DNA from: Elusimicrobium minutum
GTDB lineage: Bacteria > Elusimicrobiota > Elusimicrobia > Elusimicrobiales > UBA9959
Direction of reading: 5' to 3'
Length of the DNA: 64,000 nucleotides
Assembly (NCBI GenBank): GCA_020723765.1
Contig: DYIF01000001.1
Span: 71,127-135,126 of the forward strand
Every line of letters starts with the position of its first letter. The stretch's first letter is position 1. The notes below the pieces were generated by a model, which worked only from the letters and a program-made list of their open reading frames with translations, ran no database searches and was not told where the DNA came from. Below are positions 294 to 62,835 of the stretch, piece after piece. The position numbers and the translations under genes were made by a program.

Positions 294-2177
294 TTACTGC
301 AGCTCCAATTTTCCTTTTTTCATATACCCTTCGGTCCATCCGCCGTTTGAAAAATCGGATTTTTTAACCTTATAATAATCGTCTTTATCGCCCGTTATAA
401 CGACTTTATCCCCTTTGTTAAGTTTGGTAACTTCGCCGGGGAAAAACCATGTCGCTTTTTTGAGTACCGGAGTATCGTCTTCCTTTACGATTCCGACTCT
501 ATTGGAATTTACTCTTAAATACACCTGCTCGAAATTGGAGAAAACCTTATCCTTTTCGGAAAAACTTACGAATAAAGTATCCGACCCGGGAGAAGCCACA
601 TCGTAAATTTTGCCTACATTGAGCTCTATAATGTTTTTATCTCTTCCTTCTACTGCGTTCGAACCAAGGTTTGGATTAAAAGATATTTCGCCTCTTGCGC
701 TTTTTACAGACACCGATATATTATCGGATCTTTTAAATCCTAAGTTTCTTATCTCCGCCGAAAGTATTATGTTTTCGTTAGCTTCAAACTTCCCGTCGCC
801 GTTTTCGTCTTTAAAAAATATGTTGTAGGCCTTAAGAACGGCGTTGTCCGCATAATATTTGTCGGCCGCGGCGATACCCGCCTGTCTTCCTTCCTCAAAA
901 GCTACAGGATAAACCTCCGCCGCAACTTTGTCATATCCGGCTTTATACCCTTTTCTATACTGTTCTTGAGAGCCGAAAGCAAAACCGTCTTTATATCCTT
1001 TATCTCTTCCGTCGCTCATACCTCTGGCTCTATCTTCCGCGTAGTCTTTTCTTTTATATTCGTTATAATAAAAATCGTAAGCGGAGTTATAGGCTCTGTT
1101 GTAAGCGTCCTGATAACCTTTTTCCTTCCCCTGATTAAAACTTTCTCTGTAGCTTATGGAGTACTGAGAAGTATAAGACTGGCTGTAAGTTCTGTTATAA
1201 CCTTCGTTGTAACCTTCTCGTTTGGCCTGATCGAAAGCTCTTCTATAAGCCTGCTGATAACCTTCTCTATAACCTCTGTCGTAAGCCGCTTTTTCTTCTG
1301 GCGTGGTAAAACCGCCTTTTATAACGTCTAACGAAACGCCTTTCATTTCTCCCGTCTCAAATAAATTTTTAACTAAAGCGGATTTTGCCGACTTAACGGA
1401 AGCAAAAGAGTTTTCAAGCTCGGCTTCCCTCTGAGCAAAACCGGACTGATACCCCGCTTTTCTCCCTTTATCCGATTCCAGAACTTTAGCGTCGGCTTCG
1501 CCTTTAGAATAGCCCGAATTATAAGAACTTACATCGGTAAGTCCCGCGGATTTTCCTTCGACATATGCGGCGTTATAACCGGAGTTATATCCTTCGTCGT
1601 AGCATCTTCTTTTACCCGCGTTAGTACCGTCGTTTATACCGGCATTCTGGCCGTCGATATTTCCTCTCTGAGTTCCCTGAGACTGATCCACATTATAACC
1701 GTCTCTATAACCCGCATCTTTACCCGCCCTTTCTCCGTCGCTTATTCCTCTCCATCTTCCGTCTCGCTCTCCGTCTCTAATACCGTCTGAATAGCCGTCT
1801 CTTCTTCCGTCGATCATTCCTCTGTTGGTACCGTCTCTAAAACCGGCGTTATAAGCGTTTGTGGTATCAACAGGAGGTTTCGGAGGTTCGGGAACCGGTT
1901 GAGGCGTCGGAACGGGTTGAGGATTAGGAGGAATGGGATTTGGAGTAGGCTGAGGCTGAGGTTGAGGATGAGGATTTGGCACAGGGTGGGGGTTGGGATT
2001 AGGCAAAGGGGGATGATTGGGGTTATTATGATCCGGCTTATCCTTGTCCTTTTTAGAATCTATCAACTCTTTTATTTGAGAAGTATTAAAATCTCTTAAA
2101 GACTCATCTCCCGCAAATAGAAAAACATAGTTTGAAACGAAAGAAAACAAAATAATAGAATAAAATAAACTCTTCAT
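294..2177 (-). CDS. Secreted Gly/Tyr-repeat protein with calcium loop and SH3-like end
   Basis: I do not recognise this 627-residue protein as a named family. Residues 1-23 are a signal peptide. Residues 47-103 are a Pro/Asn/Gln-rich linker. Residues 110-245 and 297-445 are tetrapeptide repeats with Gly or Tyr every fourth position (DGxxDGxxDG, GYxxGYxxxY), recalling the deca-GX3 pattern of Yae1-like proteins. Residues 457-468 match an EF-hand loop (D457, N459, D461, G462, E468), followed by a beta-rich domain of the type placed before cell-surface repeats. Residues 562-627 look like a bacterial SH3 domain, often used to bind cell wall. The start is fixed by GGAGG upstream. It is monocistronic. 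A surface or periplasmic structural protein is likely, by inference. Confidence 0.75.
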   Translation of the reverse strand: MKSLFYSIILFSFVSNYVFLFAGDESLRDFNTSQIKELIDSKKDKDKPDHNNPNHPPLPNPNPHPVPNPHPQPQPQPTPNPIPPNPQPVPTPQPVPEPPKPPVDTTNAYNAGFRDGTNRGMIDGRRDGYSDGIRDGERDGRWRGISDGERAGKDAGYRDGYNVDQSQGTQRGNIDGQNAGINDGTNAGKRRCYDEGYNSGYNAAYVEGKSAGLTDVSSYNSGYSKGEADAKVLESDKGRKAGYQSGFAQREAELENSFASVKSAKSALVKNLFETGEMKGVSLDVIKGGFTTPEEKAAYDRGYREGYQQAYRRAFDQAKREGYNEGYNRTYSQSYTSQYSISYRESFNQGKEKGYQDAYNRAYNSAYDFYYNEYKRKDYAEDRARGMSDGRDKGYKDGFAFGSQEQYRKGYKAGYDKVAAEVYPVAFEEGRQAGIAAADKYYADNAVLKAYNIFFKDENGDGKFEANENIILSAEIRNLGFKRSDNISVSVKSARGEISFNPNLGSNAVEGRDKNIIELNVGKIYDVASPGSDTLFVSFSEKDKVFSNFEQVYLRVNSNRVGIVKEDDTPVLKKATWFFPGEVTKLNKGDKVVITGDKDDYYKVKKSDFSNGGWTEGYMKKGKLELQ

Positions 2178-2325: not shown

Positions 2326-3528
2326 TTAATAAAGCCGTATCTCTTTTTTTATATACTTATTAAATTCTTTCAATTTTTTTTCGTAAGATTTGATTATTTG
2401 TTTTGGGGAATATCCTTTTTTAATTTTATTAAAAAAATCTTTATCGCCGGTCATCTTAGCTATTTCTTCTTCCTTTATTATAAGATTATCCGGATGATAT
2501 TTGTTTAAAAAATAAATAGCGTTTACGAAAATCTTGAAAGATTCCACTTTTCTCTTATCCCAAACCTCGACGCAAACCCCTTTTACGCTCTCACCTTTGT
2601 AAATATCCGCATCGGGGGTTTTCTCGCAGACTTTGAATTTTACTCCTTTTAATTTTGCTTTATTAAGTTCGTTTGAAATTTTTATATTATCCATCCAGGG
2701 AGAGCCGAAAAACTCAAAAGGCTTATCCGTCCCTCTTCCGACGGATATGTTTGTGGCTTCAAAACAGCCGAGCCCCGCATATAATATCGCGGCGTTTAAG
2801 CTTCTTATATTGGGAGAAGGATTTACCCAGCCAAGCCCGGTCTCGTCGTAAAACATTTCGTTTTTATATCCTTCCATTTTTATTACTTTGAGGCTTAAAT
2901 TTAAATTAGATCTTTTTTTATGGAAAACCGCCATCTCACCCGGCGTTAGAGAATGTCTTGTCGGAACTTTAAAATATGCGGTGAAAGCGGTTATGCTTTC
3001 GTCGAGTATCGGGCCTTCTGTCATATCGCCTATGGGATTTGGCCTATCCAGAACGATAAACTCAATATTTTTTTTAGCCGCCTCTTCCATAGCATAGCCC
3101 ATTGTGGTAAGATAGGTATAAAACCTCGCTCCAACATCCTGTATATCGAAAACAAGAACGTCTATTCCGTTAAGCATATCTTCGGTTGGCCTTTTAGTTT
3201 TTCCGTAAAGGCTGTATACGGGAATGGAATTATATGTGGAATTTTCTATCAGATACCCTCCTTCCACATTACCCATAAATCCGTGTTCTGGAGTAAATAT
3301 CGCGACAAGATTGACTTTGTTTTCAACAAAAACATCCACCAGTTTATTCCCTTTTTTATTTAAAGAAGTATGGTTTACTATAACCCCCACTCTTTTGTTT
3401 CTTAAATCCGAAAAATTATTTTTCTCAATTACATCAAGCCCGGTTAATACTTCGCAATTAAGATCTGGGAAAAAGGATATGAGAGAAACGAAAATCAATA
3501 AAGTTTTTTTTAATTCCAAGTATCTCAT
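2326..3528 (-). CDS. namZ: Exo-beta-N-acetylmuramidase NamZ (DUF1343 family)
   Basis: NamZ enzymes (GH171) release MurNAc from the non-reducing ends of peptidoglycan glycans. The 400-residue length fits. Family blocks are visible: TPEHGF (79-84), FDIQDVGARFYTYL (127-140), DRPNP (161-165) and SVGRGTDKPFEFFG (262-275). Residues 1-25 form a signal peptide; the Cys at 25 is preceded by LN, a poor lipobox, so periplasmic secretion is likelier than lipidation. The start has AAGGAAGG upstream and overlaps the stop of mltA by four bases. It is the last gene of the operon SIS enzyme-mltA-namZ, a salvage set for wall sugars. Confidence 0.9.
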   Translation of the reverse strand: MRYLELKKTLLIFVSLISFFPDLNCEVLTGLDVIEKNNFSDLRNKRVGVIVNHTSLNKKGNKLVDVFVENKVNLVAIFTPEHGFMGNVEGGYLIENSTYNSIPVYSLYGKTKRPTEDMLNGIDVLVFDIQDVGARFYTYLTTMGYAMEEAAKKNIEFIVLDRPNPIGDMTEGPILDESITAFTAYFKVPTRHSLTPGEMAVFHKKRSNLNLSLKVIKMEGYKNEMFYDETGLGWVNPSPNIRSLNAAILYAGLGCFEATNISVGRGTDKPFEFFGSPWMDNIKISNELNKAKLKGVKFKVCEKTPDADIYKGESVKGVCVEVWDKRKVESFKIFVNAIYFLNKYHPDNLIIKEEEIAKMTGDKDFFNKIKKGYSPKQIIKSYEKKLKEFNKYIKKEIRLY

Positions 3529-4844
3529 TTCCCTTCCTTAATAACAATCAAATAAAGGTTTCCCTTTTCCCACACCGAATAAGCGAATTTTTTTGCTCTA
3601 TCTCCGGTTCCGGCAAAATAATCCACTCTCGCACCTTTTATCGCGCCGCCGGTATCGTGAGCGAAAACAAATCTCTTATTTTCATTAAAACCTTTTATGT
3701 TTAGTTTATCGTCTACATCGGGCAGATTAACCTTTATAAAAGCCGGGGTTCCCATAGGTATCAAAGAGTTATCTATCGCTATGGACCTTCCTCCGACCAG
3801 ATTAAACCCGTAAGTTCCTATCGGACCTTCGTCGAATGACTTCAAATCGTCTAAGCTAAAAAAAGCGTATCTTTTATTAGAACCTATGACCTCGCGCCAG
3901 AGATTCGGATTTTCGTTTATAAATTTTTTGGCTCTGTCGTAAAAGGTATTGTCTTTGCCTACGGCGCCGTCTCTTTTAATATAACCGCCTTCTATCAAAG
4001 CCGTCATCCACCCCTTAAATTTAAGCGAGTTGGTTGCCGCAAACTTTACCCTTTTATACCCTCCTTCTTTTAATTTCAATATGCCGGAGCCCTGAGTATG
4101 AAGGTCTAAAAGGTCGGTTATGTCTTTCATATAAGCTATCTCGTAGCCTTTACCGGATATTATCCCGTCGAAATCTATCTGGGAACGAGAGTAATAAGGT
4201 ATAAATTTTTTGCCGTCTATTCTTCCCGTCAGTTTTTGGCCTTTGTATTTATCGGAATCGAATTCTTCCAGATTTATTTCATACATATCGTCCGGTTTCC
4301 TATATAAGGGGAATTTAAAAACTTCGTCCTTTTTTAAAGAACCGTCGAAAACCGGTTCGTAATACGAGCTGAATGTCACTATCTCGGTTCCTCTTTTAAG
4401 CTCGTAAATATCGAAGTTTTCTTTTATCAGCTTATTCAATTCCGGATCGCTTTTCGAGTTTTTTAGTATCTCTCTTAACTTAACGGTTGTTTTTAATAAA
4501 ATCTCGGGAGTTATTTTCCTATTTTCAAAAGAATAGGAAACGTTTTTGGACAAAACGCCGTTCAAATATTTTTCGTTCAAATCGAAAACTCTTTCCATAT
4601 CCCCGCCCCACTGGTAAGAAAAATCGGGATAATCATTCTCGTTTAATTTTACGATAGAAACTTCTTTTACTTCTATTTTTTTACATACGAGAACCTCATC
4701 CTTTGCGCAAACCGGGGCCATCGGTTGCGGGGGTTGGCAAACCGGGCAGGAAACCTCGGTTTGATAGACCTCCGTTTTTTTTATCTGATGATGACATGCC
4801 GATAAAACAAAAGCAAAAAGAGCCGCTTTGTATATATTTTTCAT
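3525..4844 (-). CDS. mltA: Membrane-bound lytic murein transglycosylase A (MltA)
   Basis: MltA cleaves the MurNAc-GlcNAc bond of peptidoglycan, leaving 1,6-anhydroMurNAc ends. The first 17 residues form a lipoprotein signal with lipobox LSAC, Cys17 being the lipidated residue. A Cys/Pro-rich stretch follows, then the MltA double-psi barrel domain from about 145. The C-terminal 3D domain carries its conserved acids D397, D408 and D415 in HDTGGAIKG and RVDYFAGTGD; one is the catalytic Asp of the family. The 439 residues are somewhat more than E. coli MltA because of an N-terminal extension of about 60 residues. A GGAGGA site precedes the ATG. It lies 16 bases after the SIS gene and overlaps namZ. 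Confidence 0.92.
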   Translation of the reverse strand: MKNIYKAALFAFVLSACHHQIKKTEVYQTEVSCPVCQPPQPMAPVCAKDEVLVCKKIEVKEVSIVKLNENDYPDFSYQWGGDMERVFDLNEKYLNGVLSKNVSYSFENRKITPEILLKTTVKLREILKNSKSDPELNKLIKENFDIYELKRGTEIVTFSSYYEPVFDGSLKKDEVFKFPLYRKPDDMYEINLEEFDSDKYKGQKLTGRIDGKKFIPYYSRSQIDFDGIISGKGYEIAYMKDITDLLDLHTQGSGILKLKEGGYKRVKFAATNSLKFKGWMTALIEGGYIKRDGAVGKDNTFYDRAKKFINENPNLWREVIGSNKRYAFFSLDDLKSFDEGPIGTYGFNLVGGRSIAIDNSLIPMGTPAFIKVNLPDVDDKLNIKGFNENKRFVFAHDTGGAIKGARVDYFAGTGDRAKKFAYSVWEKGNLYLIVIKEGK

Positions 4845-4860
4845 TATTCCTCCGATAATT

Positions 4861-5853
4861 TTATACCGTATAAGTAACCTTAGAAAGACCTTTGGGGTTA
4901 TCGGGATTTAACCCTTTTAAAACCGCCAGCTTAACCGCTACGAGTTTTATAAAAACATCCATATCCAGAGCGTTAAAAGGATAATCGGTCGAAAAAGCCG
5001 GCAAAACGATATAGTTTATTTTCTTTTCGTTTAGTTTGTTTTTAACCAGAATAAGGTCTTCGGTAAGTTTTTTGTCTCTCGAAAGTATTATAACGAGATC
5101 TTTCGAAGTATAAGCCCCCACGGGACCGTGCAAGAACTCGGCCGCGGAATAACCTAAAGAATGTATCCGGGCCATTTCTCTGAATTTCAAAGCCGAATCC
5201 TCGGCTATGGCGTTAAAAGGGCCTCTTCCGACAAAACCGACAATCTGACTTTTTAAAACCGCATCCCAACCGAATTTCGAATAAATTTTTTCGAAATTTT
5301 CTATTACGCATTTTATGTTTTCTACGGTTTTGGAAAACTTTTTTTCGTTAAACTCCGCTCCCAACAAATTTGAGATTTTCATTACCGCCCAGAGCTGAAG
5401 TATAAAACTTTTGGTGGCGGCGACGGGAATTTCTTTGGAATTTGAAAGAAGAATATGCCAGTCGGATATTTTAGCCAGATCGTTTTTAACGATATCTTTC
5501 TCGTTCGTAACCGCGACGAGCTTTGCCCCCATATCTTTTATAATTTTAGAGCATTTTACTATGTCGAAGCTTCTTCCCGATTGGGAAAAAGAGAAAAGAA
5601 TCTTGTTTTTAAAATCCATTTTCTTTTTTAAATTGAATATGGAAAACGGGTGAACTATATTGCTTATCACGCCGCAGTAAGTTTCCCATACGTATTTTGC
5701 AAACAGAGTGGCGTTCCCCGAACTGCCTCTTCCCAACAAAAAAACCTCTTTATATTTAGCCAATTCTTTTCCTTTTATATTTAATTCGAAATTTTTAAGC
5801 AATTGTGGTATTTCCGAGATATCTTTATATGTTAAAGTTTCTTTATAATTCAT
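4861..5853 (-). CDS. SIS-domain sugar-phosphate enzyme, NagB-II/GlmS-isomerase-like
   Basis: The 330-residue protein consists of two SIS domains like the isomerase half of GlmS, without the glutaminase half. Visible are the first sugar-phosphate loop (GRGSSGNA, 42-49), SFSQSGRSFD near 90 and the GlmS-like end PKGLSKVTYTV. Such stand-alone proteins include glucosamine-6-phosphate deaminases of the NagB-II type and AgaS-like isomerases. As first gene of an operon with mltA and namZ, a deaminase acting on amino sugars recovered from peptidoglycan is the best guess. It is cytoplasmic, with no signal peptide. CGGAG precedes the ATG. Frlb-type deglycases cannot be excluded. Confidence 0.8.
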   Translation of the reverse strand: MNYKETLTYKDISEIPQLLKNFELNIKGKELAKYKEVFLLGRGSSGNATLFAKYVWETYCGVISNIVHPFSIFNLKKKMDFKNKILFSFSQSGRSFDIVKCSKIIKDMGAKLVAVTNEKDIVKNDLAKISDWHILLSNSKEIPVAATKSFILQLWAVMKISNLLGAEFNEKKFSKTVENIKCVIENFEKIYSKFGWDAVLKSQIVGFVGRGPFNAIAEDSALKFREMARIHSLGYSAAEFLHGPVGAYTSKDLVIILSRDKKLTEDLILVKNKLNEKKINYIVLPAFSTDYPFNALDMDVFIKLVAVKLAVLKGLNPDNPKGLSKVTYTV

Positions 5854-56079: not shown

Positions 56080-59000
56080 CTACTTTTTATACTGATTTAT
56101 CGCTTTTATCAGCTCAAGCCTTAATTTTTCTATTTCCGCTTCCTTTCTCGCGTATTCTTTTTCCAAATTTACTCTTTCCTCGTTTATTTTCCTTTCTTTT
56201 TCGCCAAGCTCTTTTCTTTTTTTGGAAAACTCTTCCTCATATAATTTTAACTTACTATTTATCTCTTTTTCCAATTCCGCTATGCTTTGCTTTTGAGCAG
56301 TTATTATTTCGTCTTTTTCTTTTAATGCTTTTTCAAAAGAAGAAACGACGGCGGAAATATCTTTTATTCTGGCTTCATACTCTTTCTTTAACTCTTCGGT
56401 TTTATCGAAAATCTTTTTTTCCGCCTCTTTTTTCTCTTTGAGAAAATATTCTTCCATTTCTTTCAATTTAGCGGAGTACCCTTCCCTTTCTCCGGCGATG
56501 GCTTTGGCGTACTCAAGGCTAATCTTTGCTAACTCATCTTCCATTTGAGCTATCCTGTCTTTCATTGCGGCTATCGCTGAATCTTTTTCGTTTAACTGCT
56601 TTTCGTACCTGTTTTTTTCTTTATCGAAGTTTTCCATTAATTTGCCGAAGTATTCTTCTCTTTCTTTTTCCATTTTGGCAATCTTTCCTTCGTATTCTTT
56701 TATTTTTGCTTGATAATCCTCGGTCGCTTTAGATATCTCTTCCGAAACCTTTTCGTTCAATTTATTTAAGTAATTGGACCTGATATCGTTTAATATCTTT
56801 TTATACTCTTCTTCTTTTTTATTCATCATATCGGACAATTCTCTGTTTTTATTCTCCATATCCGATATCTTTGAGCGAGTTAAAGCGAGAACGCTTTCAA
56901 ACTCTTTTTTCTCCGATTCCAAAATTTTAATCTTTTCTTCGTAGGATTTTTTCAATGTGTTTAACTCTATTTCTCCGATAGCTTTAGCGTTCTCTTCCGT
57001 TTCCTTAACAACTTTCTCGCAATAAGATTTCATCTCTTCCATGGATTTTTTTATTTTTGAAACCTCTTCTTCTTTTTCCTTTATTTTAGCCTGCATATCC
57101 AGCTTTAACGATTCCGTCTCTCTAACATGTTCTTCTTTCGCTTTTTTTAATTCTTCCAAGATTCTTGCCTTATTTTCTTCGATTAATTTGGCTATTTGAG
57201 ACGAAAGCTCTTCTCTTAAAACCTTTATCTCTTCCTCTTTTTTCTTCTCAAGATCCGCTCTTTTTTCTTCCTCCGCTTTAATTCGGCTTTCAAATTCTTT
57301 AACTTTTTTATCAATCATAGATTTATACTCGTTTTCCAGTTTGTTTTGCTTTTCGGAAAACTCCTTCTCTTTTTCTATCAATTTATTGCGCAAAGATTCG
57401 TTTTCTCCCAAATATCGAGCCCTAATGTTTTCAATTGTTGTTTTTAAAGCTTTTAATTCCTCTTCTTTTTTATCCGAAATTTCCGCTAAAGCTTTTTCAA
57501 ACTCTAAGTTTTTAGACTCGGCTTTTTCCATTATCTCTCTCATTTTCTTTTCTTTTTCTTCCATTTTAGAGACAAATTCTTCTTGCAACTTGTTTTTTTC
57601 CGATTCCGCTTTTTCCAAAAGCTCTTTAATCTTCAAAGACAATTTTTCTTCAATTTCTTTTATTTTTTTATCTTTCGCTTCCAATTGTTCGCGATAACCG
57701 CCGATCAAACCATCCTTTTCCATCTCGAATTTGCTTTCTAACTCGGAAATTTTTAAGAAATACTCTTTTTCTTTTTCGTTCAATTTCTCTTCCCAATGCT
57801 TTCTAATCTTTTCCGTTTCGCTCTCTTTTTCCTTTTCAAGCTCCGAAATCTTGGCCTCAAGAACCCTTATCTTATTTTCGTAACGTTTTCCCGTCTCTTC
57901 AACCGCTTTTTCTTTCTCGGCAATCTTTTCCAAAAGAGCGTCTTTTTCTTTTTTATTTAATTCTTTTATTGCGGCTATCTCTTTTTCAAGCCTTTCGAAA
58001 TATTCGGCCTCCGTTCTTCTTCTAAACTCTTCCAACTCCCCGGCATATCTTTGGCTAATCTCTTGCGCTTTTAAATTAAGCTCTTCAATCTTCGATCGAT
58101 ACTCGTTTTCTTTTTCTTTAAATTCGCCATTCATTTTTAATATTTTCTCTTCATATTCCTTTATAACGGATTCAAGTTCCGTTTGTTTTTTATTCCTTTC
58201 TTCCAAAATCTTTCTCTTTAGCTCGGCCTTTTCTTCTTCGATTTTTTTCAACTCTTCGCTAAACCTTATTTCATACTCCGCTTTTACTTCTTCAAGCCTT
58301 TTTATTCTTTCGGAAAACTCTTTTTCCTTTAAAGCCAAAAGCTCGGTTATCTTTTGCTCTCCCAAAGACTTTATCGTTTTAATTTCTTCTTTCAAAGCCT
58401 CTATCTCTTTTTCTTTACTCGCCGCATATTCGTTATATTTATTTTTTATAGAATCGATCTTTTCTCTATATTCGTTTTCCAATCGGCTTATCTCTTCCCG
58501 GTGTTTTTCTTCGATAGATTGGAACTTCTGTTTTTCCGCCTCCGAAATGGAATTTATTTTATTTTCGTAACCAATCGCGATATCTTTTATTCTGGACTCG
58601 TAAAGCTCTATCAGGCTACTCTTTTCTTTTTGATATTCCTCCGCTTTTTGCGAAAGCTTATTTTGCAATTCTAAAATCCTCACCTCCAATCTTTCGCCGG
58701 CCTGGGAAATCGCTTTTTCATAATTTGTTTTTATTTTTTCCAACTCCAAATTGTGATTTCCTTTAAGCGTTTCCATCTCGGCCTTAAGCTTTCTTATCTC
58801 GGATTCGTATATCGCGAGTTTGGCCGATTTTTCATTTTCCAAATCTCTAAGTTTTAAATCGTAGTTTTTCTCTTTTTCTTTGAAATCCAAGACCATCGCC
58901 TCCATTTTCCCTTCGTATTCTTTTCTTATATTATCTGCCAGAATGATCTTTTCGTTTTCTTTTTCTTTAAAAAGTTCTTTTTGGGCGTTTTTATAGAACT

Positions 59001-62000
59001 CTTCGGTTTCTTTGATTTTTTCTTTCAAAGATTCGTTTTCGTTTTTAACTATGGCGATATTTTTGTCAAATTCTTCCTTAACGGCCTTAACTTTTAATCC
59101 CACTTCGCTGTGTATCTTCGCCAGATATTCTCTTTCTAACTCTTCTTTCTCTTCATTATGTTTTCTCTCCATTTCTATTAATTTAATATTCAGTTCGGAA
59201 TTTTTCAAATTTAATTCTTCTATTTTGGCATACAATGCCGAATTTTCCGATTTAAGATTTTCTTTTTCCTTTTCTATTACCGAAAACTTTGCGTCGAAAG
59301 AAGACTTCAATTCCTCGTACTTTCTCTGATAATCTTCCATCAACTCTATTTTAAGATTGGTGTATTTTTCTTCTATTTTAGCCTGTTCTTCGGCTATTTT
59401 ATTTCTATACTCTTCTTCCTTTTCGGCGGATAATTTTATTTCAAAATCTTTTAATTTTTTCTCCCAGGATAAATTAATTTCGCCGATCTCCAAATTAAAT
59501 CTGGCTATCTGTTCATCTTTATATTTTAACTGCTCGGTTAACTGACTTATTTTATTTAAAGATTCTTTATGTTTATTGGATATATTTTCGGTTTCGATTT
59601 TAACAAGTTCGTCAAGTTTTTTATTAAACTCATTTTCAAGCTTAACTCTAAACTCCGCCAGTTTCCTGTTAGATTCGAGCTCTATTTCGCTTATTTTATC
59701 CGAAAGTTCGTTGTTTTGGGAAATAAGAGCTATTACGGTCTGCTGAGATTTTTGATATATCTCCCTTAACTCTTCCACAAGATTCTCATAATCTTTCTTT
59801 TCTTGAGCCCACACTCCTTTTTCTCTTTCTAAGATTTTAGAATATTCTTCATCCAGCTCTTTTTCCTTTAAAAGATAATCGTTTCTAATAATTTTAATCT
59901 TTTCTTTATATTCTTCTTCAATTTCTTTCTTAATAGACAACACTTTCCCCTCATATTCCCTTTTTGTCGCCTCAAGTTCCTTTTGACGCATCTCCAATTC
60001 TAAATCAAACTTTTTCTTCATCTCTTTTTTTTCTTCTTCGAGTCTGGCTCTTTCTTCGCTTAATTTATTCTGATATGAAATTTTTATCTCTTCTATTTTT
60101 TTGATATGGCTTTCAAGTTCTTTCTCCTTTACGGCCACCACCTCCAACAACTTCTCATTGGACTCGGACTTTATTTTCCTTATCTCTTCGTTTAGTCTTT
60201 CTATATCGGAGTCTCTTTTTAAGATTTCGTCTTTATATCTTAAGACTATTTCTTCCTCTCTTCTGTTATATTCTTCTTTGAGTTCTTTTAACGCCTGATC
60301 GTATTCGTTTTCTTTTTTAATAAGCGCTTCTTCAAAATCTTTTTTAATCGCATCGACCTTTTCTTTTTCTTCCAGGGAAATGTGGTTTATTCTATCTTCG
60401 AAAGCCTTTTCTATTTCCCTTATCTTAGAGTTATAAAAATCTATGAGATTGGATTTTTCTCTTTCGTATTCTTCGTTTTTGCCGGAAAGCTCGTTTTTCA
60501 AAGATTCTATCTTTAAAAGATAGCTCTCTCTCATCTTATCGAACATTGCAGATCTTTCCGCAAATTCTTTTTCTTTTTCTTCTATCAATCCGCTTATTCT
60601 GCCGGCATAGTCTTTCTCCATGCCATTTATTTTGTCAGTAAGCTCGGATATTTTATTTCTATATTCGTTTATTTTACTCTCATAATCGGCCGATATCTTT
60701 TTTTCTCTGACGGCCGCCGCTTCTTCATATCTCTTTTTTTCTTCTTCAAGTTTTAGCTTCAGTTCGTTTACTTTGTTCAAATACTCGTCTCTGGATCTGG
60801 AAAGCTCTTCCAGATGCTTTTTAAAACCTTCCTCCTTTTCTCTTATCGCTAAAGATATTTTATTTTCAAACTCTTCGTGTTTTTTACTAAGCTCGGCTAA
60901 AAGCTCGTTTATTTTATTTTCTTTTTTACCGAGCTCTTTGGAAAAAATTTCCGAAATATTTCTTTTTTCTTCCTCAAAATCGGCGTAAAGCTCTTGTTTT
61001 TGAGAGTCGTAATACAACTCAAGCTCTCTAACCTGATTTTTGTATCTACTCTCCATATCTTTTACGGTATTCTCTATCTCAAGATTTTTCTCTTCTATGA
61101 TCTTAAGATATCTTTTTTCCATCTCCTTCATTTTATTGTCGTAATCGGCTTCTATGTTCGAAATTTTATCTCTCAAAGCTCTGATTTCTTCCACATTTTT
61201 AAACCTTATGGACTCAAGTCTGTTTATCTCGTCCTTCAACTCTTTTTCTCTGGTTTCTATGAAAGACAAAAGTTTCGATTCGAATTCCTTTTCTTTTTCC
61301 AGTATTTTATCGTTTAAATTATTTATAATTTGAGAATATTCGTTTATTTTATTTTCAAGTTTTTCCTTTTCGATTTTGCCTTCGCTTTTAATTTTTTCGA
61401 CTTTGCTTTCAAAATCGCTTTTCGCTTCTTCAATCTCTTTATCCTTAGCTCTCTTAAAATCGGCTTTAATCTCAAAAACTTTGCTTTCGAAACTTTTTTC
61501 CATTAAAGAAATTTTATTCTGAAGGTTCGATATCTCGGTTTTATAATTTTCTTTTAAGTTATTCAAATTATTTATCTCGGAAATAAGTTCTTTTTCTTTA
61601 TCGGTTACCATCTGGATTATTTTCTGGTCGTATCCGTTTTGGATCTCGATCAGTTTGGACTCGACCGATTTAAGATTGGATTCTTTTTCGGCTATTTTAT
61701 TTTCGTATTCTTTCCTCAAAGATTCCATTCTTTTTTCGAAATCCGCCTGATACCGAGCAAATTTTGCCTCATATTCGGCGGCGACTTTGTTTTTTTCTTC
61801 CAGTATTTTGCTTTCAAGTTCTTTTATCTTATTAATTAATTCGTCGTTTACAGCCTTAACTTTTTCTCTTTCTTCTTCAAATTTTTTTAGATTATCAGAA
61901 TATTCTTGCTCTCTTAAAGATATTTGCTTTAATAATTCTTGTCTGAAATTTTCCTTCAACGAGCTTATTTCGTTTTCAAGCTTTGAAATGGTGGTTTGAC

Positions 62001-62835
62001 TTTCTTTATATTTTTCCTCCATTTCTTTCGCTCTTAAAACTACTCGCTCTCTTTCCGCCTCAAAAGCTTTATGAATTTCGGAAATCTCTCTTTTCCTCTC
62101 CTCCTCTATATTTTCAAGTTTTTTGTTAAAATTATGAGTTAAAAATTCATATTCTTTTCTGCCTCTCTCCTCAAGCTCTTTTTTCTTCTCTTCATACTCT
62201 CTTCTAATCTTTTCTTTTTCTTCTTCAAGGGCCCTTTCCTTTCCGGCGAGGTTTTCCTCAAGATTTTTAACTCTGGACAAAAGTTCGGTCTCTCTAAGTC
62301 TAAACGAATCTTCTATTTCGTTTATTCTATTTTTAAAAACTTCCTCGGTTTCTTTTTTAAGCTGGTCGTATTTTTTTTGAGCTTCCGAAAGTTTTTCGGA
62401 ATATAAGCTTTCCGTGTCCAGCAACCTTTTTTGCCACAAACCGACCAGATTTCTCTGCTTTATATCGAGCTCCTCAAATCTTTTCTGATACTCCTCCTCA
62501 AGTTCCTTTCTTAAAATTTCTATCCTCGCTTCTTTTTTTATCAAATCGTCTATGCTTATCTTCCCCTCTCCCAAAAGAGAAATGGTTGCTTCCAATTTTT
62601 TATAGAAATCCTCTTTTTCTTCCACGGTCTTAAGCCTTGAGTTTAAATTAAATTCTATTTGAGAAAGTCTTTCGGAAAGCTTTTTCTTCTCATCGTCTAA
62701 AATTTCTACGTTTTTTTTCAAATCCAACTTTTCTTTTTCCAGAGAAGATATTTTCTCAAGCGCCCATCTCAAACTCATTCTTGCGGTATCTATATTGGAT
62801 ATATCTCCGACTATCTTTTCTATTTCGTTTTCCAT
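56080..62835 (-). CDS. Giant coiled-coil protein of 2251 residues with internal repeats
   Basis: Residues 1-35 are a short non-coil head (DTARMSLRWALEKISSLE); nearly all the rest is Glu/Lys-rich coiled coil. There is no Walker motif, no signal peptide and no membrane helix, so it is neither SMC/Rad50 nor a surface protein. A motif of about 40 residues, KI..L...KEKEF...I..LE..K..Y..KI, recurs at least six times. A block near residue 776 realigns near 1388, suggesting a duplication with an offset of about 612 residues. Fully helical it would be roughly 0.3 micrometre long. GGAG precedes the ATG. It leads the 27-kb minus-strand run and is divergent from a CheY-type receiver. Confidence 0.85.
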   Translation of the reverse strand: MENEIEKIVGDISNIDTARMSLRWALEKISSLEKEKLDLKKNVEILDDEKKKLSERLSQIEFNLNSRLKTVEEKEDFYKKLEATISLLGEGKISIDDLIKKEARIEILRKELEEEYQKRFEELDIKQRNLVGLWQKRLLDTESLYSEKLSEAQKKYDQLKKETEEVFKNRINEIEDSFRLRETELLSRVKNLEENLAGKERALEEEKEKIRREYEEKKKELEERGRKEYEFLTHNFNKKLENIEEERKREISEIHKAFEAERERVVLRAKEMEEKYKESQTTISKLENEISSLKENFRQELLKQISLREQEYSDNLKKFEEEREKVKAVNDELINKIKELESKILEEKNKVAAEYEAKFARYQADFEKRMESLRKEYENKIAEKESNLKSVESKLIEIQNGYDQKIIQMVTDKEKELISEINNLNNLKENYKTEISNLQNKISLMEKSFESKVFEIKADFKRAKDKEIEEAKSDFESKVEKIKSEGKIEKEKLENKINEYSQIINNLNDKILEKEKEFESKLLSFIETREKELKDEINRLESIRFKNVEEIRALRDKISNIEADYDNKMKEMEKRYLKIIEEKNLEIENTVKDMESRYKNQVRELELYYDSQKQELYADFEEEKRNISEIFSKELGKKENKINELLAELSKKHEEFENKISLAIREKEEGFKKHLEELSRSRDEYLNKVNELKLKLEEEKKRYEEAAAVREKKISADYESKINEYRNKISELTDKINGMEKDYAGRISGLIEEKEKEFAERSAMFDKMRESYLLKIESLKNELSGKNEEYEREKSNLIDFYNSKIREIEKAFEDRINHISLEEKEKVDAIKKDFEEALIKKENEYDQALKELKEEYNRREEEIVLRYKDEILKRDSDIERLNEEIRKIKSESNEKLLEVVAVKEKELESHIKKIEEIKISYQNKLSEERARLEEEKKEMKKKFDLELEMRQKELEATKREYEGKVLSIKKEIEEEYKEKIKIIRNDYLLKEKELDEEYSKILEREKGVWAQEKKDYENLVEELREIYQKSQQTVIALISQNNELSDKISEIELESNRKLAEFRVKLENEFNKKLDELVKIETENISNKHKESLNKISQLTEQLKYKDEQIARFNLEIGEINLSWEKKLKDFEIKLSAEKEEEYRNKIAEEQAKIEEKYTNLKIELMEDYQRKYEELKSSFDAKFSVIEKEKENLKSENSALYAKIEELNLKNSELNIKLIEMERKHNEEKEELEREYLAKIHSEVGLKVKAVKEEFDKNIAIVKNENESLKEKIKETEEFYKNAQKELFKEKENEKIILADNIRKEYEGKMEAMVLDFKEKEKNYDLKLRDLENEKSAKLAIYESEIRKLKAEMETLKGNHNLELEKIKTNYEKAISQAGERLEVRILELQNKLSQKAEEYQKEKSSLIELYESRIKDIAIGYENKINSISEAEKQKFQSIEEKHREEISRLENEYREKIDSIKNKYNEYAASKEKEIEALKEEIKTIKSLGEQKITELLALKEKEFSERIKRLEEVKAEYEIRFSEELKKIEEEKAELKRKILEERNKKQTELESVIKEYEEKILKMNGEFKEKENEYRSKIEELNLKAQEISQRYAGELEEFRRRTEAEYFERLEKEIAAIKELNKKEKDALLEKIAEKEKAVEETGKRYENKIRVLEAKISELEKEKESETEKIRKHWEEKLNEKEKEYFLKISELESKFEMEKDGLIGGYREQLEAKDKKIKEIEEKLSLKIKELLEKAESEKNKLQEEFVSKMEEKEKKMREIMEKAESKNLEFEKALAEISDKKEEELKALKTTIENIRARYLGENESLRNKLIEKEKEFSEKQNKLENEYKSMIDKKVKEFESRIKAEEEKRADLEKKKEEEIKVLREELSSQIAKLIEENKARILEELKKAKEEHVRETESLKLDMQAKIKEKEEEVSKIKKSMEEMKSYCEKVVKETEENAKAIGEIELNTLKKSYEEKIKILESEKKEFESVLALTRSKISDMENKNRELSDMMNKKEEEYKKILNDIRSNYLNKLNEKVSEEISKATEDYQAKIKEYEGKIAKMEKEREEYFGKLMENFDKEKNRYEKQLNEKDSAIAAMKDRIAQMEDELAKISLEYAKAIAGEREGYSAKLKEMEEYFLKEKKEAEKKIFDKTEELKKEYEARIKDISAVVSSFEKALKEKDEIITAQKQSIAELEKEINSKLKLYEEEFSKKRKELGEKERKINEERVNLEKEYARKEAEIEKLRLELIKAINQYKK

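Follow-up and report, generated by a model that had tools for sequence, protein, structure and literature searches.

A predicted exported GX3-repeat protein of Elusimicrobiota and a promoter element shared with genes for exported hydrolases

The locus and its product

Translation of the window (the whole stretch of 64,000 nucleotides that was analyzed) gave an open reading frame at exactly positions 294–2177 on the minus strand, and its 627-aa product was recognized from the translation and from homologue searches as an apparently exported protein with GX3 repeats, here called the GX3-repeat protein. All features of the gene described below are on the minus strand. Upstream comparison and pattern scans showed a shared promoter element at 2232–2273, which consists of GGACTTTTAGCACT, 22 nt, and TAAAAT, with the ATG 54 nt downstream. 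The likely ribosome-binding site, GGAGGG, was read from the sequence at 2183–2188. The first 22 residues (2112–2177) look like a Sec-type signal peptide that ends in FLFA and has no lipobox Cys; this was judged by eye, without a signal-peptide program, and the N-terminal hydrophobic segment was present in all rows of the homologue alignment A1. Export is predicted from this N-terminal sequence, in agreement with a preliminary description of the locus, which had called the protein secreted.

A Pro-rich linker (residues 47–101; 1875–2039) varied in length and sequence in the alignments and was almost absent from three homologues (L080, L129, and L130). GX3 block 1 (residues 103–255; 1413–1871), with predicted helices at residues 105–161, 165–213, and 216–255, was delimited by repeat statistics, a structural model, and the Pfam family Yae1_N. 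This block contains RCYDEGY (residues 191–197; 1587–1607), of which R191, C192, Y193, E195, and G196 (RCY.EG, including the Cys) were invariant in 24 of 24 aligned rows. A linker modeled with low confidence (residues 256–292; 1302–1412) leads to block 2, which is rich in GY and Y (residues 293–445; 843–1301) and for which the repeat statistics and the model gave helices at 293–375 and 380–445. The C-terminal part is predicted to hold an Ig-like beta-sandwich domain (residues 446–559; 501–842), from the model and a fold search, and an SH3b-like domain (residues 560–627; 297–500), from profile, model, and fold search. The Pro-rich linker, the two repeat blocks, and the SH3-like end of the layout first described were retained, but its EF-hand was not, as the loop in question sits in the Ig-like domain.

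The Gly/Tyr repeat

The repeat was analyzed in residues 103–444, which contain 13.7% Gly, 10.8% Ala, and 10.5% Tyr. The number of Gly(i)/Gly(i+4) pairs was 32, in comparison with 6.3 ± 2.1 (maximum 14) when the same residues were shuffled 2000 times, and 24 and 25 Gly pairs were counted at lags 8 and 12, respectively. The corresponding number of Tyr pairs was 20, in comparison with 3.6 ± 1.7 in the shuffles. All 23 Gly residues in the stretch 112–212 share one phase of four; the phase moves by 2 near residue 216, and the new phase holds all 15 Gly residues of block 2 (residues 302–434). The strict period of four that had been noticed earlier therefore holds inside the blocks, and is interrupted by this one phase shift and by the 37-residue linker (residues 256–292). 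At the DNA level, the best tandem repeat in the blocks scored 43 and the best overall (61) was in the Pro-rich linker, so the DNA of the repeat region is not a microsatellite.

An exact period of four on an alpha helix drifts by about 40 degrees per repeat, so that 13 consecutive Gly residues circle a straight helix more than once. A Gly stripe of this kind turns round a straight helix, and packing is expected with a strong right-handed supercoil. By this geometry, the proposed placement on one helix face is impossible for these Gly residues unless the helices supercoil. Glycan binding by the repeat had also been suggested, and nothing was found in its favor.

Predicted structure

In a full-length model built from 18 rows, the Ig-like and SH3b domains were confident and the repeat was poor, with a mean pLDDT of 58.3. 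The repeat was also modeled alone with AlphaFold2, using the 32 rows (alignments A2 and A4) left from 51 segments in 60 loci after identical segments were removed; L060 and L077 were missed by the segment pattern and are therefore absent from these alignments. The mean pLDDT was 87.9, a value to be read with the ease in mind with which long helices reach high pLDDT, the pTM was 0.61, and block means were up to 98. The model consisted of five helices of 57, 49, 40, 83, and 66 residues folded as a single-chain bundle of hairpins, in line with the helix assumed in the preliminary description, and the helices may pack through Gly. Comparison of the repeat model with the PDB gave no good match (Foldseek E 0.37 or worse; best VIA Z 3.8), nor did comparison with viral models (BFVD; best E 0.043), and a missing match of this kind does not prove a new fold. 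A PDB sequence search yielded nothing beyond weak rows and matches of low-complexity or Pro-rich type. Its top-ranked profile row, 6su9 (a repeat of His/Asn/Gly within a pyridoxal kinase, E 0.0016), was rejected as a match of composition.

The loop D457–E468 (DENGDGKFEANE; 774–809), which reads DxNxDGxxxxxE and was located by sequence, alignment, and model, has the 12 residues and the DxDxDG-type spacing that are common to EF-hand loops. However, in the model it is flanked by strands (448–457 and 469–478), where an EF-hand has helices. The loop is therefore not part of an EF-hand helix-loop-helix, as had been proposed, but would join two beta strands of the Ig-like domain, and residues 457–468 are a possible Ca2+ site.

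The presence of an SH3-like end was upheld by the model, in which residues up to 627 fit the SH3b domain of 4r0k (Z 10.0, rmsd 1.8, 64 residues aligned). The score of the window's protein against Pfam SH3_3 was 15 bits, below the cut-off of 27. Among six Wallbacteria-side homologues, SH3_3 was above the cut-off in three (L080, L126, and L127) and absent from the other three (L128, L129, and L130) in the Pfam search, so wall binding is no fixed property of the wider family. The predicted C-terminal fold is the same as that of bacterial SH3b wall-binding domains (SH3_3; the putative dipeptidyl-peptidase BT_1314, 4r0k), and we infer peptidoglycan or another wall polymer as its probable ligand. 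In contrast to proteins of the BT_1314 type, the GX3-repeat protein has no catalytic peptidase domain, and its SH3b domain is joined to a GX3 rod.

Distribution and conservation of the family

The family is known here only from metagenome-assembled genomes, and the window's genome holds one copy of the gene. When 61 genomes (the window's own and 60 relatives) were searched, 20 passed E 0.001; two of these (G011 and G057) did so only through weak low-complexity stretches, and 18 were counted as having true full-length copies. The 17 relatives, at 51–54% identity (52–56% in the search of the 61 genomes), retain the repeat pattern. Of 294 Elusimicrobiota genomes, 28 had the protein, and every one of them belongs to the GTDB family of the window's genome. 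These 28 were picked equally by the whole-protein profile and by one built from the C-terminal domains alone, which indicates that the repeat and the C-terminus travel together. Within the same GTDB family, 18 of 46 genomes were without the protein, including the sole genome of the same genus.

A scan of genome contigs gave 40 loci, 39 of which were labeled Elusimicrobia, Elusimicrobiota, Elusimicrobiales, plain 'bacterium', or, once, Actinobacteria; the single Actinobacteria record is likely mislabeled. The remaining locus was in a Candidatus Wallbacteria genome (36% identity), and in the phylum of this genome the protein was present in 3 of 39 genomes, one of them with four copies. From the Wallbacteria-side and wider searches, G297, G298, and G299 were accepted and the other matches were set aside. 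Four different proteins with RAEG/KAEG/QEG-type tails (L110, L112, L114, and L116) and three different proteins of TPR type (L131, L132, and L113) were rejected as members. The remaining weak rows of the wider search matched the repeat region or profile positions of about 435–550, and none was accepted. Viral contigs held no relative (22 stretches matched a pattern and none was confirmed), nor did the plasmids and phages searched, and the PHROG matches were rejected as repeat look-alikes. No description of the family or of its architecture was found in the printed record.

The constant core of the family runs from block 1 through the Ig-like domain, and the tail varies. The tail is an SH3b domain in L080, L126, and L127 and is missing in L128; in L129 and L130 it is replaced by other sequence without a Pfam match. 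Across the 24 rows, 47 residues were invariant; the repeat holds 44 of them, and Gly or Tyr accounts for 37 of the 44. In 17 of the 24 rows, though not in the window's protein, aligned position 403 is a second Cys. The Gly register was invariant at about 35–55% identity in two phyla. In the tree, a single clade (100/100) united the Elusimicrobiota rows and excluded the Wallbacteria-side rows; L129 and L130 were long branches.

Comparison with known GX3 and GxxxG systems

Pfam Yae1_N (PF09811) matched the window's protein with 46 bits, above the cut-off of 27.5, and matched 17 of the 18 rows of A1 at E ≤ 0.01. The FliH equivalog models reached at best 62.5 bits, far below the cut-off of 180, over residues 375–429, which belong to the repeat only. 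These matches mean that the repeat is not without precedent, although resemblance between such simple repeats is no evidence of common descent. The earlier statement that no named family is known for this protein consequently stands only in part: the repeat does match Yae1_N (above the cut-off) and FliH (below it), whereas for the whole architecture no characterized family was found in the Pfam, FliH-type model, PHROG, and PDB sequence searches. For a five-helix repeat architecture in a putatively exported protein no precedent came to light, and the kind of repeat is itself known.

In the parts of the 2015 eLife report considered here, association of Yae1 and Lto1 requires or runs through a deca-GX3 motif (PMC4523923). 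Consecutive GX3 units are common to both systems, and in Yae1/Lto1 they mediate protein association. The Yae1/Lto1 pair binds the ABC protein Rli1 and the CIA complex. As portrayed in those parts, however, Yae1 and Lto1 are cytosolic eukaryotic adaptors with one 40-residue motif and no other domains (PMC4523923), whereas the present protein is bacterial and apparently exported and has about 300 repeat residues, five predicted helices, and Pro-rich, Ig, and SH3b parts. For FliH, the relevant portions of Trost and Moore (PMC2674601, BMC Microbiol 2009) state that the GxxxG repeats are thought to drive dimerization and favor Tyr or Phe right after Gly (over 45% at x1), describe long GxxxG repeats as surprisingly rare outside FliH, and call for structures. 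The AxxxG(xxxG)m helices of FliH/YscL, in which an aromatic x1 is common, resemble the repeat studied here, but Y and F make up only 22% and 6% of x1 (28%) in comparison with over 45%, and FliH has up to 12 GxxxG in comparison with 33 in the window's protein (PMC2674601, as above). In L080, L126, L127, and L128, the unbroken runs reach 20 Gly. In further contrast with FliH/YscL, the GX3-repeat protein is predicted to be exported and the rest of FliH is unmatched. By analogy with deca-GX3 and FliH, the self-association that had been proposed for the repeat is plausible.

The TPR proteins L131, L132, and L113, from near Wallbacteria, carry CxxC pairs, a Pro-rich stretch, short GY/GX3 repeats, and TPR. 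They are also predicted to be exported, but they end in TPR and have 8 overlapping GxxxGxxxG, in comparison with 23–29 in the GX3-repeat family, and they form a separate family.

The promoter element and the genes behind it

The element GGNCTTTNNGCNCT, 21–22 nt ahead of TANAAT, was found upstream of 16 of the 18 homologues and was absent upstream of all six Wallbacteria-side homologues. A slightly looser pattern had a single match in the whole window, that of this gene, with 0.22 expected. Across 59 genomes of the family, 108 pattern matches were obtained, in comparison with 7 for a reversed control (both sums over the per-genome table, with site G002:C144 counted twice), and the form TRGGCCTTTNGGCCCTT, 21–23 nt before TANAAT, had sites in 49 of the 59. 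As sites of other genes, 76 were fetched, and 31 rows were assigned to this gene by position or likeness, six of them (G412, G413, G415, G416, G417, and G418:C7) being assumed own-gene sites. The gap was 21–23 nt in 70 of the 76 fetched sites, though 14–26 nt was allowed. Positions left free by the pattern were conserved as well: T (85%) and A/G (99%) directly precede GG, position nine is G (78%), and position twelve is C (68%). If the gap is 22 nt, the 14-mer would be centered at about −41.5, the binding position of class II activators. A standard −35/−10 scan of the region found 9 in comparison with 5.7 ± 2.3 expected, which says little. Rfam gave nothing at the GX3-repeat gene and one tRNA in the window, and the exact strings of the element retrieved only unrelated papers from the printed record.

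A signal-like N-terminus was found in the open reading frame behind 51 of 70 sites, in comparison with 86 of 233 baseline open reading frames (Fisher p 1.3e-7), as judged by a home-made rule under which an in-frame start anywhere within the first 170 nt is accepted and for which the baseline is high (37%). The 70 sites are redundant through orthology and fall into 25 clusters, 21 of which have a signal-like member. Pfam assigned a family to 13 of 20 proteins chosen to represent the downstream genes, and most of the 13 are exoenzymes: PAP2, alpha-amylase, Amidase_2, Lactamase_B, Ribonuclease, Abhydrolase_6, PAD_porph, Peptidase_C11 (clostripain), Trypsin_2, SLT_2, and Peptidase_S8 (subtilase). 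Two small conserved families, which account for 9 and 7 of the 70 sites, appear to be cytosolic, and use of the element is thus not confined to exported proteins. Since the element is common to genes for exported hydrolases, the GX3-repeat protein is probably made together with exoenzymes, and the element possibly marks an uncharacterized exoenzyme regulon of this Elusimicrobiota family.

Two further observations were made among these sites. The only other full match in the window's genome (L199; G000:C8:38760-40500) lies ahead of a gene whose product is an exported trypsin-like protease. At nine sites (L221, L232, L238, L243, L245, L253, L256, L259, and L262), the element lies ahead of the gene for a conserved protein (about 56 aa; MTWEEI..KYE...STDKLIWLFS), and Pfam had no match for its representative, L221.

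Function

The GX3-repeat protein is probably part of the outer-surface feeding equipment. With a little under even confidence, we favor a structural role for the exported protein in the envelope or at the cell surface, namely as a helical rod or scaffold that is anchored to the wall and made together with exoenzymes. The repeat, the conserved architecture, and the shared element were computed, and the Ig and SH3b folds were predicted. The signal peptide would take the protein across the inner membrane, and the flexible Pro-rich linker would precede a stiff rod in which five long alpha helices pack closely via evenly spaced Gly and Tyr occupies the grooves. At the end of the rod would come the Ig-like domain, possibly stabilized by Ca2+, and then the SH3b domain, which would sit on peptidoglycan or another wall polymer. 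We infer co-regulation with the exoenzyme genes and a scaffold role, and in such a program the rod could attach substrate or prey, hold enzymes, or brace the envelope.

A wider proposal appears doubtful to us: that the protein has a new soluble fold, a multi-helix glycine-zipper rod with unbroken GX3 register, which serves as an extracytoplasmic wall-anchored surface machine and stands under an unrecognized activator element, TRGGCCTTTNGGCCCTT near −41.5, defining a regulon of exoenzymes, for scavenging or predation, in uncultured Elusimicrobiota.

Alternatively, the protein might be a surface adhesin or self-assembling fiber, in which GX3 helices of several molecules join head-to-tail or side by side and a Cys192 disulfide dimer is allowed. 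The association of Yae1 with Lto1 through GX3 segments and the presumed dimerization of FliH through GxxxG, as given in the parts of the two papers cited above (PMC4523923; PMC2674601), would fit such a fiber, as would Cys192, the sole Cys of the window's protein and invariant in all 24 rows. However, the modeled single-chain hairpin bundle may satisfy the Gly faces within one chain, and an intra-chain disulfide is equally possible in the 17 rows with the second Cys; we consider a fiber possible but not likely. It is improbable that the protein protects the envelope or acts as an inhibitor that guards the producing cell against its own amidase, transglycosylase, and proteases. Its promoter element is that of the Amidase_2, SLT_2, and protease genes, but no inhibitor-like domain was found in the Pfam and FliH-type model searches, the element also precedes genes without such a need, and genomes without the GX3-repeat protein (for example G005, G007, and G009) still have it. 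A FliH/YscL-like stator of an export ATPase or a Yae1-like cytosolic adaptor, with a signal peptide that is only apparent, would account for the Yae1_N score and the FliH matches to the repeat, but the latter stay confined to the repeat at 62.5 against 180 bits, and the hydrophobic N-terminus of all A1 rows and the Ig and SH3b domains make this very improbable. Low-complexity drift, a functionless repeat born of slippage, would suit the biased composition but has practically no chance, for the blocks hold little tandem repetition in their DNA and the conserved Gly register in two phyla refutes it.

Returning to the favored rod or scaffold, the family provides long GxxxG examples of about 300 residues that are strictly conserved in two phyla, soluble, and predicted to be exported and to form a helical bundle, and the shared promoter element offers an entry to what free-living Elusimicrobiota secrete, and when.

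Genomic neighborhood

At 56080–62835 on the minus strand, the window holds an open reading frame of 2251 aa, for which Pfam gave no match at E 1e-4. No conserved gene neighborhood was found around the GX3-repeat genes, as no neighbor cluster occurred in more than 7 of 41 loci. Just upstream of the gene in the window (2326–5853, minus strand), genes for SIS, MltA (with a 3D domain), and NamZ lie in a row. This row did not cluster with genes of other loci and was dropped as evidence for function; it is likely a peptidoglycan-recycling operon.
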